From NCBI GenBank assembly GCA_018263335.1, contig JADFCY010000012.1, positions 1 through 56,335 on the forward strand: a stretch of DNA of 56,335 nt, written 5' to 3'. Position 1 is the stretch's first letter. Each line of letters opens with the position of its first letter. Both the position numbers and the translations under genes were made by a program. Source of the stretch: Methanolinea sp. (GTDB lineage Archaea; Halobacteriota; Methanomicrobia; Methanomicrobiales; Methanospirillaceae). A model generated the notes under the pieces. The model saw only the letters and a program-made list of their open reading frames with translations. It was not told where the DNA came from and ran no database searches. This document shows positions 7,494 to 40,876 of this stretch, piece after piece.

Positions 7494-8366
7494 TCAACGG
7501 ACGATCTTGGTGATCGGGATCTCCAGGATATCCTCGGCACCCGCTGCTTTCAGGCGGGGGATAAGGGTATTGACATCCGCCTTGTGCACGACGGTCTGGA
7601 CGCTGTAGTAGTCGATCCCGTGCAGCCGGCTGACGGTGGGTTTTTTCATGGCGGGGAGAGCGGAGATCACCGTCTCCATCGAGGGGGTCGGCACGTTCAT
7701 CGAGAGGAGCACCTGCCGCCGTGCCTCCATCACGCCGGTGAGGAGGGTTACGATCTCCTCGATCGCCTTCCGCTTTGCCGGGTCCTCGAAAGACTCGCGG
7801 TTCGCGATGATCATCGTGTAGGACTCCATGATCTGCCCGATGATCTTCAGGCCGTTTTTCCGGAGCGTCGTCCCGGTCTCGGTTAGGTCCACGACCACGT
7901 CCATCAGGTCAGGCACTTTCGCTTCCGAGGCCCCAAAGGAGTGGAAGAGCTGGACGGGGATTCCCAGGCGGCCGAAGAACTCGCGGGTCAGCTCGGGGTA
8001 CTCGGTCGTGACGCGGCTGTGTTGGCGGATCTCCTTCACATCGTTGATCGGCTCGGACTGGTGCACCGCCACGACGATCTTCACCGTCCCCTCGCCGGTC
8101 TTGCTGTAGTTGAGCCTGGCCACCTCGCGGACCCGGGCCCCGCTCTCCTTCACCCAGTCGAGTCCCGATATCCCGAGATCGAAGTACCCCATCTCCACGA
8201 ACCGCGGGATCTCCTGGGGCCTCAGGATCTTCACCTTTGAGATGCGGCTGTCCGCGATCATGGGGTTGTAGTCGCGGTCAGACCGCCTCACCTCGAGGTC
8301 CGCCTCGCGGAAGAGGAGCAGGGTCTGCTCTTCGAGGCTCCCCTTGGGAAGTGCGATAGTGATCAT
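7494..8366 (-). CDS. hisG: ATP phosphoribosyltransferase, long form
   Basis: The first enzyme of histidine biosynthesis, joining ATP and PRPP. The 290 residues match the long, hexameric HisG form with a C-terminal ACT-like regulatory domain. MITIALPKGSLEEQTL is the N-terminal signature. MGYFDLGISGLDWV follows, then DLTETGTTLRKNGLKII (PRPP-binding loop, about residues 160-176). The last 75 residues (MNVPTPSMETVISALP to the end) are the regulatory domain that binds histidine in relatives. The gene stands alone, flanked by terminator-like sequences on both sides. Confidence 0.95.
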   Translation of the reverse strand: MITIALPKGSLEEQTLLLFREADLEVRRSDRDYNPMIADSRISKVKILRPQEIPRFVEMGYFDLGISGLDWVKESGARVREVARLNYSKTGEGTVKIVVAVHQSEPINDVKEIRQHSRVTTEYPELTREFFGRLGIPVQLFHSFGASEAKVPDLMDVVVDLTETGTTLRKNGLKIIGQIMESYTMIIANRESFEDPAKRKAIEEIVTLLTGVMEARRQVLLSMNVPTPSMETVISALPAMKKPTVSRLHGIDYYSVQTVVHKADVNTLIPRLKAAGAEDILEIPITKIVR

Positions 8367-8393
8367 TGCGCTCTCTAATGCGACGGCAGAGGG

Positions 8394-8427
8394 AAAAAAG
8401 GTATCATGAAAATCGCATCAGCGATTT
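8394..8427 (-). terminator. Hairpin plus oligo-T terminator after the DUF1015 gene
   Basis: AAATCGC-ATCA-GCGATTT (8410-8427) is a perfect 7-base stem with a 4-base loop. On the minus strand a T6 run follows at 8394-8400. It lies 19 bases after the DUF1015 stop. Confidence 0.6.
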
Positions 8428-8445
8428 CCATCCCTTGAAATCCTT

Positions 8446-9708
8446 TCAATCCAGCGTGTGGACGACGAGGCCGGAGAGGAGCTTTGGCTCAAACCAGGTG
8501 GACTTCGGGGGCATGATCCCCCCGGCATCCGCGATCTCGATCACGGATTCAACTCCCACCGGCTGCATCGAGAATGCCACCGCATACCCGCCGCTCCTCA
8601 CCATGGCCTCGAGGTCCGCGACGGGCCGGGCACCCCCAAGGTAATGGAGGCGCGGGTCTCCCCTCGGGTCGGTGATGCCGAGGATGCCGGTGAGCACCTC
8701 CCGCTGGAGGACAGAGACGTCAAGTGCCGCGATCCTGTCCGTGCCCTGTTCCCGGGGGCACCCGCACTCGTACCACGTGCCTTCGAGGAACATGTGGATG
8801 ACGTGGCAGTCTTCCGGTGCGAAATGGCCGGGCTGGATGTGGAATGCCCTCGTGTCCACGTCCCCGCAGGGGATGACCGAGAAGGACCCTTTCAGCCGGT
8901 CCATGAACTCCTGCGGGGAAAGTCCCGAGAGGTCGCTCACAAGGCGGCTGTAGCCGTGGATCTTCACGCGGTCGTGCGCAAAGATCACGCCAAGGAACCG
9001 TGTCGCCTCGGGAGAAAGCCTCCCTTCCACCTTCCGCATCAGACAGACGTTCACGGCGGACTTGGCGCGGTGGTGGCCGTCGGCGATGTAGAGCCGGGGG
9101 ATGGCACGGAAGATCCTCTCCAGAGAGGAGAGGTCCCCTTCCTTGGTGATGCACTTCACCCGGTGTACCGTGCCGTCATCCCACCTCACCTCGGCGTCTT
9201 CCTCCCCGAGCCTGTTCCAGAGTGCCTCAAGGTACCCGTGCGTGTCGTTCCTGTCCTCAAAGAGGAGCACCACGGGCCCGCTGTGCGCGTTCACCGCGTC
9301 GATGTGCCTTGTCCGGTCCTCCTCCTTGTCGTAGCGGGTCAGCTCGTGTCTCCGGATGGCGTTCTCCTCGTAGTCCCTGACAGAGACCGTGCACCCGAGC
9401 CCAAGGAAGTCGTTCCCGTTCCCGGTCACCCGGTAGAGGTACATCGCAGGGGAGCGGTCCTGCAGGAGGAGCCCACTTGCCCTGAACTCACCGAACACCT
9501 CTCGGGCCCTCGCATACACCGTGGCGTCGTATGGCGGAACGCCGGGAAGCTCGGCGTCGGGCCTGCTCACCCTGAGGAAGCTTGACCGGTTCTTCCGGAT
9601 ACACGCGGCCGCCTCATCGGTGGTCACGACATCGTAGGGGACCGCGGCGACGAGGGGAGCTGCACTGGCCGGGGGGCGTACCGCGGGGAAAGGAAAAATA
9701 TCCACCAT
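8446..9708 (-). CDS. DUF1015 family protein
   Basis: A 420-residue cytosolic protein starting VDIFPFPAVRPP and AAVPYDVVTTDEA, the signature of the conserved DUF1015 family of bacteria and archaea. Family hallmarks include RHELTRYDKEEDRTRHIDAVNAHSGPV and YIADGHHRAKSA (about residue 240). The biochemical role is unknown. The start is ATG 9708, chosen because GAGGGAG lies 4 bases before it; ATG 9723 lies within that upstream sequence. It is divergent from rimI. Confidence 0.85.
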   Translation of the reverse strand: MVDIFPFPAVRPPASAAPLVAAVPYDVVTTDEAAACIRKNRSSFLRVSRPDAELPGVPPYDATVYARAREVFGEFRASGLLLQDRSPAMYLYRVTGNGNDFLGLGCTVSVRDYEENAIRRHELTRYDKEEDRTRHIDAVNAHSGPVVLLFEDRNDTHGYLEALWNRLGEEDAEVRWDDGTVHRVKCITKEGDLSSLERIFRAIPRLYIADGHHRAKSAVNVCLMRKVEGRLSPEATRFLGVIFAHDRVKIHGYSRLVSDLSGLSPQEFMDRLKGSFSVIPCGDVDTRAFHIQPGHFAPEDCHVIHMFLEGTWYECGCPREQGTDRIAALDVSVLQREVLTGILGITDPRGDPRLHYLGGARPVADLEAMVRSGGYAVAFSMQPVGVESVIEIADAGGIMPPKSTWFEPKLLSGLVVHTLD

Positions 9709-38717: not shown

Positions 38718-39089
38718 ATGCAAATACGGGGCATCAGCACGGACCTCCTCGACCTCCTGCTGGAGGTGGGGAGGGATCGCCATCCTTACGAGTTCGCGGG
38801 GGTGATCATGGAAGAGGGTGGCCTGCTCCAGGAACTCTTCCTCCTCCCGGGGACCGTGAGCAGCGAGGAGAGCGCAAGTCTCTTCTACGACATGATGCCC
38901 CTTGATACCCACGTCGCGGGGAGCGCTCACAGCCATCCGAGTGGCGTTCTCTCTCCCTCGAACGCCGATCTCTCCTTTTTCCCAAGGATCGGGCGCTACC
39001 ACCTCATCGTGGGATTTCCTTACACGAGGGAGGCCTGGCGGTGCTACCGGGCGAACGGGGAACCCATGGCGCTGGAGGTGGTAGGATGA
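38718..39089 (+). CDS. JAB1/MPN (JAMM) metalloprotease-like protein
   Basis: A 123-residue protein, just the JAMM domain: Glu25 in YEFAGVI and HSHPSGVLSPSNAD (His71, His73, Ser81, Asp84) are the complete zinc-protease motif. Archaeal JAMM proteins can cleave ubiquitin-like SAMP conjugates. GAGG lies 4 bases before ATG 38718. The stop overlaps the ribL start (ATGA). Confidence 0.88.
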   Translation: MQIRGISTDLLDLLLEVGRDRHPYEFAGVIMEEGGLLQELFLLPGTVSSEESASLFYDMMPLDTHVAGSAHSHPSGVLSPSNADLSFFPRIGRYHLIVGFPYTREAWRCYRANGEPMALEVVG

Positions 39090-39565
39090 AGCGGGTGGTT
39101 GCGACCGGGACGTTCGATATCCTCCATCCCGGGCACGTCTATTACCTCGAGGAGTCCAGGCGGCTCGGTGACGAGCTGTATGTGATCGTCGCCAGGGACA
39201 AAAACGTCCGCCACAAGCCAAGGCCCGTCATCCCCGAGGAACAGCGGGCAAGGATGGTCGCCGCACTCAGGCCTGTAGATCACGCGGTCCTTGGGGACCT
39301 CCATGACATGTTCAGGCCGATCGAGGAGATACGTCCCGCGGTCATCACGTTCGGGTTCAACCAGCACTTCGAAGAGGAGGGCATAAAGAGGGAGCTCGAG
39401 AGACGGGGACTTTCTGTCGAACTGGTACGGATCGGACGCTACCTGGGGGACCCGTACTGCAGCTCGAGCGGGATAGTCAGGCAGGTGCTCGCCCGCTGCC
39501 AGCATGGCCCGCAATCACGGGAGAGTGGGTTGAATGACGAACACTTTGACCGAAACGACCCCTGA
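39086..39565 (+). CDS. ribL: FAD synthetase RibL (cytidylyltransferase fold)
   Basis: Transfers AMP from ATP to FMN to give FAD. The 159 residues start MKRVVATGTFDILHPGHVYYLEESRRLGDELYVIVARD, with the HxGH nucleotidyl-transfer motif. FGFNQHFEEEGI and GDPYCSSSGIVRQVL (the S-S-S loop) are RibL-like. Archaeal RibL was first described in Methanocaldococcus. It is translationally coupled to the JAMM gene. The last 20 residues look unconserved. Confidence 0.88.
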   Translation: MKRVVATGTFDILHPGHVYYLEESRRLGDELYVIVARDKNVRHKPRPVIPEEQRARMVAALRPVDHAVLGDLHDMFRPIEEIRPAVITFGFNQHFEEEGIKRELERRGLSVELVRIGRYLGDPYCSSSGIVRQVLARCQHGPQSRESGLNDEHFDRNDP

Positions 39566-39623
39566 AGGCCGCCGGGTGCGATTCGGTGTCCCTGCTCCAA
39601 AGAGGGAACCATATTAATCTGAA

Positions 39624-39654
39624 AGGTAATATAAGGCTAACGAGGGGTCTCGTT
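39624..39654 (+). promoter_or_regulatory. Promoter and inverted repeat of the encapsulin operon
   Basis: GGTAATATAAGG (39625-39636) is a TATA-like element. Just after it AACGAG-GGGT-CTCGTT (39639-39654) is a perfect inverted repeat that would lie at the transcription start. A GAGGA Shine-Dalgarno precedes ATG 39692. The repeat is a candidate operator; which regulator is unknown. Confidence 0.5.
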
Positions 39655-39691
39655 CAACCAGGCCCTTGTACAATTTGAGGATTGATGAGGT

Positions 39692-40063
39692 ATGCCTGAA
39701 TTTGCGACTGCATTTTCTGGAATGAACAGCGACCGGAAGCTCTCCCACAGTGAACTTGTCAGGGCCATCCGTTTGATGATTGCCGACGAGTACGAGGCCA
39801 TCCAGGTCTACACCCAGCTCGCGGAGTCGATCGAGAACGAGCTTGCGCGTGAGGTGCTGCGCGACATCGCGAATGAAGAGCGGGTCCATGCAGGGGAATT
39901 TTTGAGGCTGCTCTACGAGCTGGCACCCGACGAGGCCGGGTTCTATGCAGAAGGGGCCGCGGAGGTGGAGGCAGAGATCGCAAAACTCGCCCCCCGCGGC
40001 ACATCCCCGGGAGCGGAGGAGAAGAAGGGTGGCGCGACCACTATCGGCTCGCTGAAGGAGTGA
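39692..40063 (+). CDS. Encapsulated ferritin-like protein (encapsulin cargo)
   Basis: A 123-residue helical protein. Glu33 (ADEYEAIQVY) and Glu63/His66 (NEERVHAGEF) fit the E...E-x-x-H iron ligands of encapsulated ferritins, and the spacing is close to that of the Rhodospirillum protein. Only one pair of helices is present, so two chains would build one ferroxidase centre. After residue 100 a flexible Pro/Gly/Glu-rich linker ends in TTIGSLKE, which matches the GSL-type targeting peptide that docks cargo inside encapsulin shells. The encapsulin gene follows 15 bases later. Confidence 0.88.
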   Translation: MPEFATAFSGMNSDRKLSHSELVRAIRLMIADEYEAIQVYTQLAESIENELAREVLRDIANEERVHAGEFLRLLYELAPDEAGFYAEGAAEVEAEIAKLAPRGTSPGAEEKKGGATTIGSLKE

Positions 40064-40078
40064 GGAGGAGATCAGATC

Positions 40079-40876
40079 ATGTCAGAACGTTACCTTGGGA
40101 GAGAAGACGCCCCGATAGAGGCCAGGACATGGGAGCTGCTCGATGCAGCGATGGTCGACGCGGCAAAGAGTGTCCTTGCCGGGCGCCGGCTCCTGCACAT
40201 CGAGGGGCCGTACGGCCTTGGACTGAAGGCAGTACCGCTCGAGGACTGCCAGGTGAACGAGTGCATGGCAGTCAGCCAGTTTGTGCCGGTGCACCTGATC
40301 AGCACGACGTTTACGGTAGGGATCAGGGACCTGCTGGCGTTTGAGCAGAACGGCCTCCCCTTCTCGGCCGCAGGCGCCGCGGAAGCGGCAATCGAGTGCG
40401 CACGAAACGAGGATACCCTCATATTCGAGGGTGCCGCAGGGAGCAAAGGCCTCCTCACGATGGAGGATTGCGGCATGCTGAAACTCTCCTCGTGGAATAC
40501 CGTGGGGAAAGCCGCCGATGACGTCATCCAGGCCATGATCCTCCTCGACGAGGCAGGGTATCACGGCCCGTACAGCCTTGCCCTGGCCCCTTCGCGATAC
40601 AACCTCCTCTTCCGCCGCTACCTCCAGGGGCAGAGCACGGAGCTCGAGCACATCAGGTCCATTGTGACGGACGGTGTGTACAAGGCCCCCGCCCTCAAGA
40701 GCGGGGGGGTCCTGCTGGCATCAGGAAAGCGCTATGCGTCCATAGTCCTCGGCCAGGACATGACTGTCGGGTTCATCGGACCCATCGGGGACAGCCTTGA
40801 GTTCTCCATCACCGAGAGCCTGGCACTCGTCGTGAGGGAACCCTCCTCCATCTGCGTCCTGAAGGACAAGGAATAA
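40079..40876 (+). CDS. enc: Encapsulin shell protein (family 1, HK97 fold)
   Basis: A 265-residue protein that self-assembles into a hollow icosahedral nanocompartment. Family 1 features in order: N-terminal REDAPIEARTWELLDAAMVDAAKSVLAGRRLLHIEGPYGLG, EDTLIFEGAAGSKGLL, DEAGYHGPYSLALAPSRYNLLFRRYLQG, IVTDGVYKAPALKSGGVLLASG and the C-terminal IVLGQDMTVGFIGPIGDSLEFSITESLALVVREPSSICVL. It is co-transcribed with the ferritin-like cargo gene, so the shell should store or mineralise iron or protect against oxidants. It converges with the helicase gene. Confidence 0.93.
   Translation: MSERYLGREDAPIEARTWELLDAAMVDAAKSVLAGRRLLHIEGPYGLGLKAVPLEDCQVNECMAVSQFVPVHLISTTFTVGIRDLLAFEQNGLPFSAAGAAEAAIECARNEDTLIFEGAAGSKGLLTMEDCGMLKLSSWNTVGKAADDVIQAMILLDEAGYHGPYSLALAPSRYNLLFRRYLQGQSTELEHIRSIVTDGVYKAPALKSGGVLLASGKRYASIVLGQDMTVGFIGPIGDSLEFSITESLALVVREPSSICVLKDKE

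Follow-up and report, generated by a model that had tools for sequence, protein, structure and literature searches.

We analyzed a window of 56,335 nucleotides, by which we mean the whole stretch of Methanolinea sp. DNA under study. Two open reading frames lie on its forward strand, one at 39692–40063 (123 amino acids) and the other at 40079–40876 (265 amino acids), with a gap of 15 bases between them; the arrangement of a shell gene and a separate upstream cargo gene described in the first-pass annotation was therefore found. The upstream gene was assigned to a ferritin-like cargo (EncFtn/FLP) using NF058679, TIGR04535, PF02915, phmmer, and a structural model, and the downstream gene to a family 1 encapsulin shell with an HK97 fold using PF04454, NF041155, AlphaFold, and Foldseek. 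A putative Shine–Dalgarno-like sequence, GGAGGAGAT (40064–40072, forward strand), precedes the shell start within the intergenic gap, and an AT-rich element present genus-wide at the same position 5′ of the cargo gene (39611–39622, forward strand) may serve as the archaeal TATA-box region for the operon. A short inverted repeat (39642–39668), with GGG..CCC arms of varying letters and spacing, follows this element ahead of the cargo gene. The repeat recurs across the genus, including in a genome without the shell (G001), and is a candidate operator. Folding here was no better than that of shuffled sequences, and a conserved hairpin in the leader RNA was rejected.

The genes are ordered dihydropteroate synthase-like, JAB, cytidylyltransferase-like, cargo, shell, and a convergent helicase; SufC follows at a distance of a few kilobases. 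This order is conserved among relatives, the tested neighbors are all cellular genes, and the cargo gene is directly upstream of the shell gene on the same strand in all intact relatives examined. The CTP_transf_like gene 5′ of the cargo (39080–39562) has an HldE-type protein as its best partial match and is possibly an archaeal RibL-type FAD synthase; its neighborhood is conserved with or without the shell. As a possible flavin-supply partner, this neighbor is uninformative, because it stands beside the cargo in the shell-less G001 as well and no flavin family match was reached. The host genome encodes the methyl-coenzyme M reductase alpha subunit (mcrA; 227 bits), which bears out the earlier description of the host as a methanogen, and its nearest named relatives are Methanolinea and Methanoregulaceae metagenome-assembled genomes. 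Contamination of the draft genome was rejected because the neighboring genes are conserved and the locus is present in genomes of one to five contigs. Purifying selection acts on both the shell and cargo genes, with pairwise dN/dS values of approximately 0.03 to 0.2, many of the synonymous distances being near saturation. The locus is not a product of chance, given these dN/dS values, family E-values of 1e-28 to 1e-67, and the presence of the operon in 22 of 61 related genomes.

Identity of the shell and cargo proteins

The 265-residue protein matched PF04454 with 227 bits (residues 4–249) and NF041155, the NCBI equivalog model of family 1 encapsulin shells, with 212 bits (residues 6–261; cut-off, 100 bits), in line with the earlier proposal of a family 1 encapsulin over the whole length. 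A sequence search of solved structures with the shell returned encapsulins only. The AlphaFold monomer model, built with 35 sequences, had a mean pLDDT of 91.6; its best Foldseek hits were Myxococcus xanthus EncA (8v4q/8v4n, TM 0.86), and the TM scores against many solved encapsulins were 0.81 to 0.90. The stretch containing the E-loop (GPYG...RD, residues 43–84; 40205–40330, forward strand) is 42 residues long in the window, and this short form is common to the shell clade (42 residues, one shell with 45) as against 57 residues in EncA-type shells. In the shell tree, one clade (98/98) unites the methanogen shells with Thermoflexus, Thermoflexales, Atribacteria, and Armatimonadetes shells; M. 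xanthus EncA and most of the sampled Chloroflexota shells fall outside it. Judged by its gene and monomer model, the 265-residue protein is a family 1 (classical) encapsulin shell, a protein of viral descent. Self-assembly into icosahedral particles of 20–42 nm is a hallmark of this shell class.

The HK97 fold is shared with viruses, and within this phylum PF04454 picks up capsids of proviruses as well (G178 and Methanosarcina-type loci), so that the protein could instead be a provirus capsid protein or the remnant of one. We consider this negligibly probable. The first-pass annotation had named a better match to a phage capsid as grounds for abandoning the encapsulin assignment; tblastn against 50,697 phage records gave no match, and the best PHROG match had 28 bits. 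Structural similarity is far greater with encapsulins (E 2e-29, TM 0.86), the top viral model reaching E 2e-15 and TM 0.65 at 13% identity. The tested neighbors, which include the dihydropteroate synthase-like, cytidylyltransferase-like, helicase, and SufC genes in their conserved order, are cellular, no portal, scaffold, terminase, or head genes were found among them, and the shell gene is intact with low dN/dS.

PF04454 matches were found in 51 of 393 sampled genomes of the phylum and are a mixture of true encapsulins, Flp-fusions, and proviral capsids. The G178 gene (L074:7030–7857) adjoins head-morphogenesis, scaffold, and weak portal matches, and its provirus capsid product scores 144 bits against the NCBI family 1 encapsulin model (cut-off, 100), so that automatic annotation would label a virus capsid an encapsulin; this capsid may inform the origins of encapsulins. 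A locus in G174 (L078:8372–9244) and similar Methanosarcina-type loci also have PF04454 hits above the Pfam cut-off and are taken as proviral because a minor capsid/cement protein gene and a tail tape-measure gene adjoin them. Methanosarcina acetivorans, in the control set, matches PF04454 as well.

The HMM search proposed in the first-pass annotation for both proteins placed the cargo, like the shell, above the cut-off of its NCBI family: NF058679 (EncB_fam) matched with 100 bits (cut-off, 90). The older and narrower TIGR04535 (ferrit_encaps) gave 79 bits, below its cut-off of 125, and misses the Thermoflexus cargo too (88 bits). In a sequence search of solved structures, EncFtn proteins came first, the best being Pyrococcus furiosus EncFtn (5n5e; phmmer, 4.7e-13) and M. 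xanthus EncC (7s8t). In the monomer model, the helices have pLDDT values above 90 and the tail is disordered; Foldseek gave 5n5e as the best hit of this model, along with M. xanthus EncC and EncB. As the earlier description of a minimal ferritin with three ligands had it, E33 (39788–39790, forward strand) and the EXXH motif E63-x-x-H66 (39878–39889, forward strand) are predicted diiron ligands; all three are invariant in 26 homologues and correspond to Glu32, Glu62, and His65 of Rhodospirillum rubrum EncFtn, the diiron ligand role of which is documented (PMC11202242). Gene and monomer model together thus identify the cargo as an EncFtn/FLP-TP type protein with a ferritin-like core of approximately 100 residues and all of its diiron ligands. 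Hallmarks of this cargo class include a decamer with D5 symmetry and ferroxidase activity. Identity as a plain rubrerythrin was rejected: PF02915 gives a weak, partial match (33 bits) over residues 30–92 only, and the tail consists of a linker and a TIGSLKE peptide with no rubredoxin domain. A rubrerythrin without a link to shells, the other outcome held to tell against the encapsulin reading, was accordingly not what we found; the protein is an EncFtn linked to the encapsulin and bears a targeting peptide.

The C-terminal peptide and the shell-less relatives

The key link between the two genes is the C-terminal targeting peptide of the cargo, a feature absent from the first-pass annotation. 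TIGSLKE (40040–40060, forward strand) fits the FLP-TP targeting-peptide consensus tabulated in a review (PMC11202242). Its T and G are invariant in 26 shell-linked cargos, and the other positions of TIGSLK are conserved at 81% or more; the preceding disordered linker (39989–40039, forward strand; pLDDT mostly below 50) is variable, with the commonest residue at 20 to 35% in most columns. A pattern search of the genome for further cargos with a TIGSL-type tail gave three hits, none of them a genuine further cargo; the tail of the cargo described here is the sole genuine in-frame match.

The cargo family is spread more widely than the shell. Of 61 relatives, 22 have an intact shell and one (G019) a broken shell, and the cargo family occurs in 44, half of them (22) with an intact shell and half (22) without; within the genus, 12 of 13 genomes, the window included, have the shell. 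The peptide was found in 22/22 cargos accompanied by an intact shell and in 0/22 of those without, and in a wider set in 34/34 cargos beside a shell and in 0/40 sampled cargos without an intact shell. Shell detection relied on the shell sequence and did not involve the peptide. Most peptide-less cargos end at about residue 100, directly after the last helix. Mapped on the cargo tree, shell and peptide each require 7 changes, and every independent pair changes in the same direction; only three independent switches lie on well supported branches (seven on the best tree), which are too few for a significant sign test.

Shell loss goes with peptide loss, by clean absence in G001 and by decay in G019 and G306. 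In G001, which belongs to the same genus, the cargo stands between the same two neighbors without a peptide, and the shell is cleanly missing. In G019 (L073, approximately 8300–9190), the shell is a pseudogene with frameshifts, and the stop codon of the cargo cuts off the linker before the former tail; a degenerate TTLNSLK can be seen downstream of this stop. In G306 (L195), a peptide-less A-type cargo (A and B being the two cargo lineages treated below) is followed by a short shell remnant that resembles the strand PLSLI-KTFSLSKRDLA. The case of G385 (L075:7100–8520), in which a shell split by a frameshift adjoins a peptide-less cargo, may be an assembly error or decay because the broken frame lies against a masked stretch. 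Broken shells were also considered for G015 and G038 and rejected, as both open reading frames are intact with stops at their ends. Some shell-less genomes carry two diverged free ferritin-like copies (L198 of G383, in tandem; L140/L141 of G052). Replacement of ferritin by the encapsulin was not supported, since most genomes have PF00210 ferritins whether or not they carry the shell.

These observations bear on whether the cargo is merely a free rubrerythrin- or ferritin-like enzyme encoded beside the shell gene, the shell being empty or holding something else. The same protein occurs in many relatives without a shell and so works without one. However, the peptide is conserved and the linker before it is not, the peptide follows the shell (34/34 against 0/40), and the genome has no other genuine TIGSL-type tail among the hits of the pattern search. 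We therefore regard a free enzyme in the window as very improbable. Whether ferritin-like proteins that lack a targeting peptide are encapsulated is described as unclear in a review (PMC11202242). In the relatives studied here, the free proteins must work unencapsulated, because the near-complete genomes holding them show no family 1 shell.

Lineages of the cargo and origin of the partnership

The cargo cores form two deep lineages with full support, A (which includes the bacterial operons) and B (the window's clade together with free proteins from many families), and cargos beside shells come from both. Cargo cores are 67.7% identical within A and 52.9% identical between the lineages, whereas the corresponding shell identities are 57.2% and 55.8%; the shells thus show no deep division to match that of the cargos. 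Seven other sampled families have B-type cargos in the free form, and encapsulated ones are confined to part of a single family. The simplest reading of these sequences suggests that a shell joined a resident free ferritin-like protein, which then gained the tail. On balance, we lean toward the Methanomicrobiales shell being an exchangeable module, in which an incoming shell of the Chloroflexota/Atribacteria/Armatimonadetes type met a resident free ferritin-like protein that gained the TIGSL peptide, with repeated joint loss since, even within one genus.

If there was no such re-partnering, the ancestor of the B-type cargos would have been encapsulated and the shell lost many times. Shell losses are directly seen in G001, G017, G019, and G306, a single encapsulated/free split was not rejected on a smaller set of 45 rows (p-AU 0.355), and a single clade for the B-type operon shells was not quite rejected (AU p 0.066). 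By contrast, one grouping of all encapsulated cargos was rejected with 67 rows (p-AU 4.5e-5), and loss by itself sits poorly both with A and B cargo cores that are far apart when their shells are not and with the seven families of free B-type cargos set against encapsulation in part of one. Loss alone is accordingly a rather unlikely history in our judgment, and the joining of a shell to a resident free protein is the one that we prefer.

Predicted function and comparison with known systems

In all likelihood, this Methanomicrobiales locus is a classical family 1 encapsulin operon, in which the shell is predicted to assemble, the cargo to be loaded, and ferroxidase activity to lead to iron storage. 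The shell protein would self-assemble into a closed icosahedral compartment of HK97 fold, and the cargo would form a ring-like oligomer with diiron sites at the subunit interfaces and oxidize Fe(II). Loading would come about because the C-terminal TIGSLKE docks on the inner shell wall, so that ferric mineral would collect inside the shell. In the window's lineage, the partner of the shell is a ferritin-like protein that occurs free in many related archaea, with neither peptide nor shell. In EncFtn systems, Fe(II) is oxidized at interfacial diiron sites, and a peptide-binding shell holds the ferric product (PMC11202242).

Iron storage and oxygen defense, the two roles put forward in the first-pass annotation, are putative roles drawn from knowledge of the family. 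It counts against the storage scheme favored above that O2, with which EncFtn usually works as oxidant, is seldom encountered by a strict anaerobe, and the genome also has an ordinary ferritin (156 bits) and other rubrerythrin-family proteins; because of that separate ferritin, the shell is not the sole iron store. The compartment may instead serve mainly to remove an oxidant (O2 or H2O2) during brief exposure to air, the iron mineral being a by-product and not a store. The strictly anaerobic host and the classical ferritin already present speak for this possibility, as does the persistence of the shell-less cargo across many families, from which the chemistry may outweigh storage. Nevertheless, consuming an oxidant needs no shell, and characterized EncFtn systems accumulate iron mineral within theirs (PMC11202242); we hold oxidant removal as a tentative alternative to iron storage in a loaded shell. 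The cargo core persists as a free protein in many relatives, which suggests that its reaction is of use by itself; containment or storage may be what a shell contributes.

Two-gene Flp encapsulins appear common in one order of hydrogenotrophic methanogens, Methanomicrobiales, where they offer a natural series, partly within one genus, in which one predicted ferroxidase occurs with shell and peptide, with neither, or in states of decay. This is a natural experiment on the purpose of the shell, the contribution of which would emerge from a comparison of the free proteins with the shell and cargo of the window. The first-pass annotation had placed encapsulins in few archaea. The word "few" is dated: a survey reports family 1 encapsulins in four archaeal phyla and Flp cargos in two, with archaeal Flp-fusions mostly in Crenarchaeota (PMC8346489). 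A search of article texts gave no description of encapsulins in Methanomicrobiales, and the supplementary tables of the survey may already list the locus.

The two-gene system itself belongs to a known type, and the less ordinary part is the shell-less relatives that keep a peptide-less cargo. The window resembles the family 1 system of M. xanthus, EncA with the Flp cargos EncB and EncC, in its HK97-fold shell (TM 0.86, 32% identity) and in its ferritin-like cargo with a TVGSL/TIGSL-type C-terminal peptide, but its E-loop stretch is 15 residues shorter (42 against 57), one cargo gene was found instead of several, and the host is archaeal. The Flp-fusion encapsulin of P. furiosus (2e0z/5n5e) is likewise archaeal, and its cargo domain is the closest solved relative of the window's cargo. 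There, however, the ferritin is fused to the shell, whereas the window has two open reading frames, with a stop codon and 15 bases between them, and a targeting peptide, so that the separation of cargo and shell noted earlier is upheld; the shells are also far less alike, with 63 bits as compared with 130 for the highest-scoring encapsulin. The two-gene Flp operons of Thermoflexus, Thermoflexales, Atribacteria, and Armatimonadetes share the shell clade (98/98; 51–58% identity), the gene order, and the TIGSL-type tail, although they are bacterial and their type A cargos share on average 53% identity with B-type cargos from the clade of the window. Finally, the free homologues of the relatives resemble s-FLP, a short FLP with no targeting peptide (Nitrosomonas europaea, 3k6c), in having the three-helix ferroxidase core, and the window's cargo differs from 3k6c in its linker and peptide; identity to the window's cargo is approximately 70% for the free archaeal homologues compared with 18% for 3k6c.
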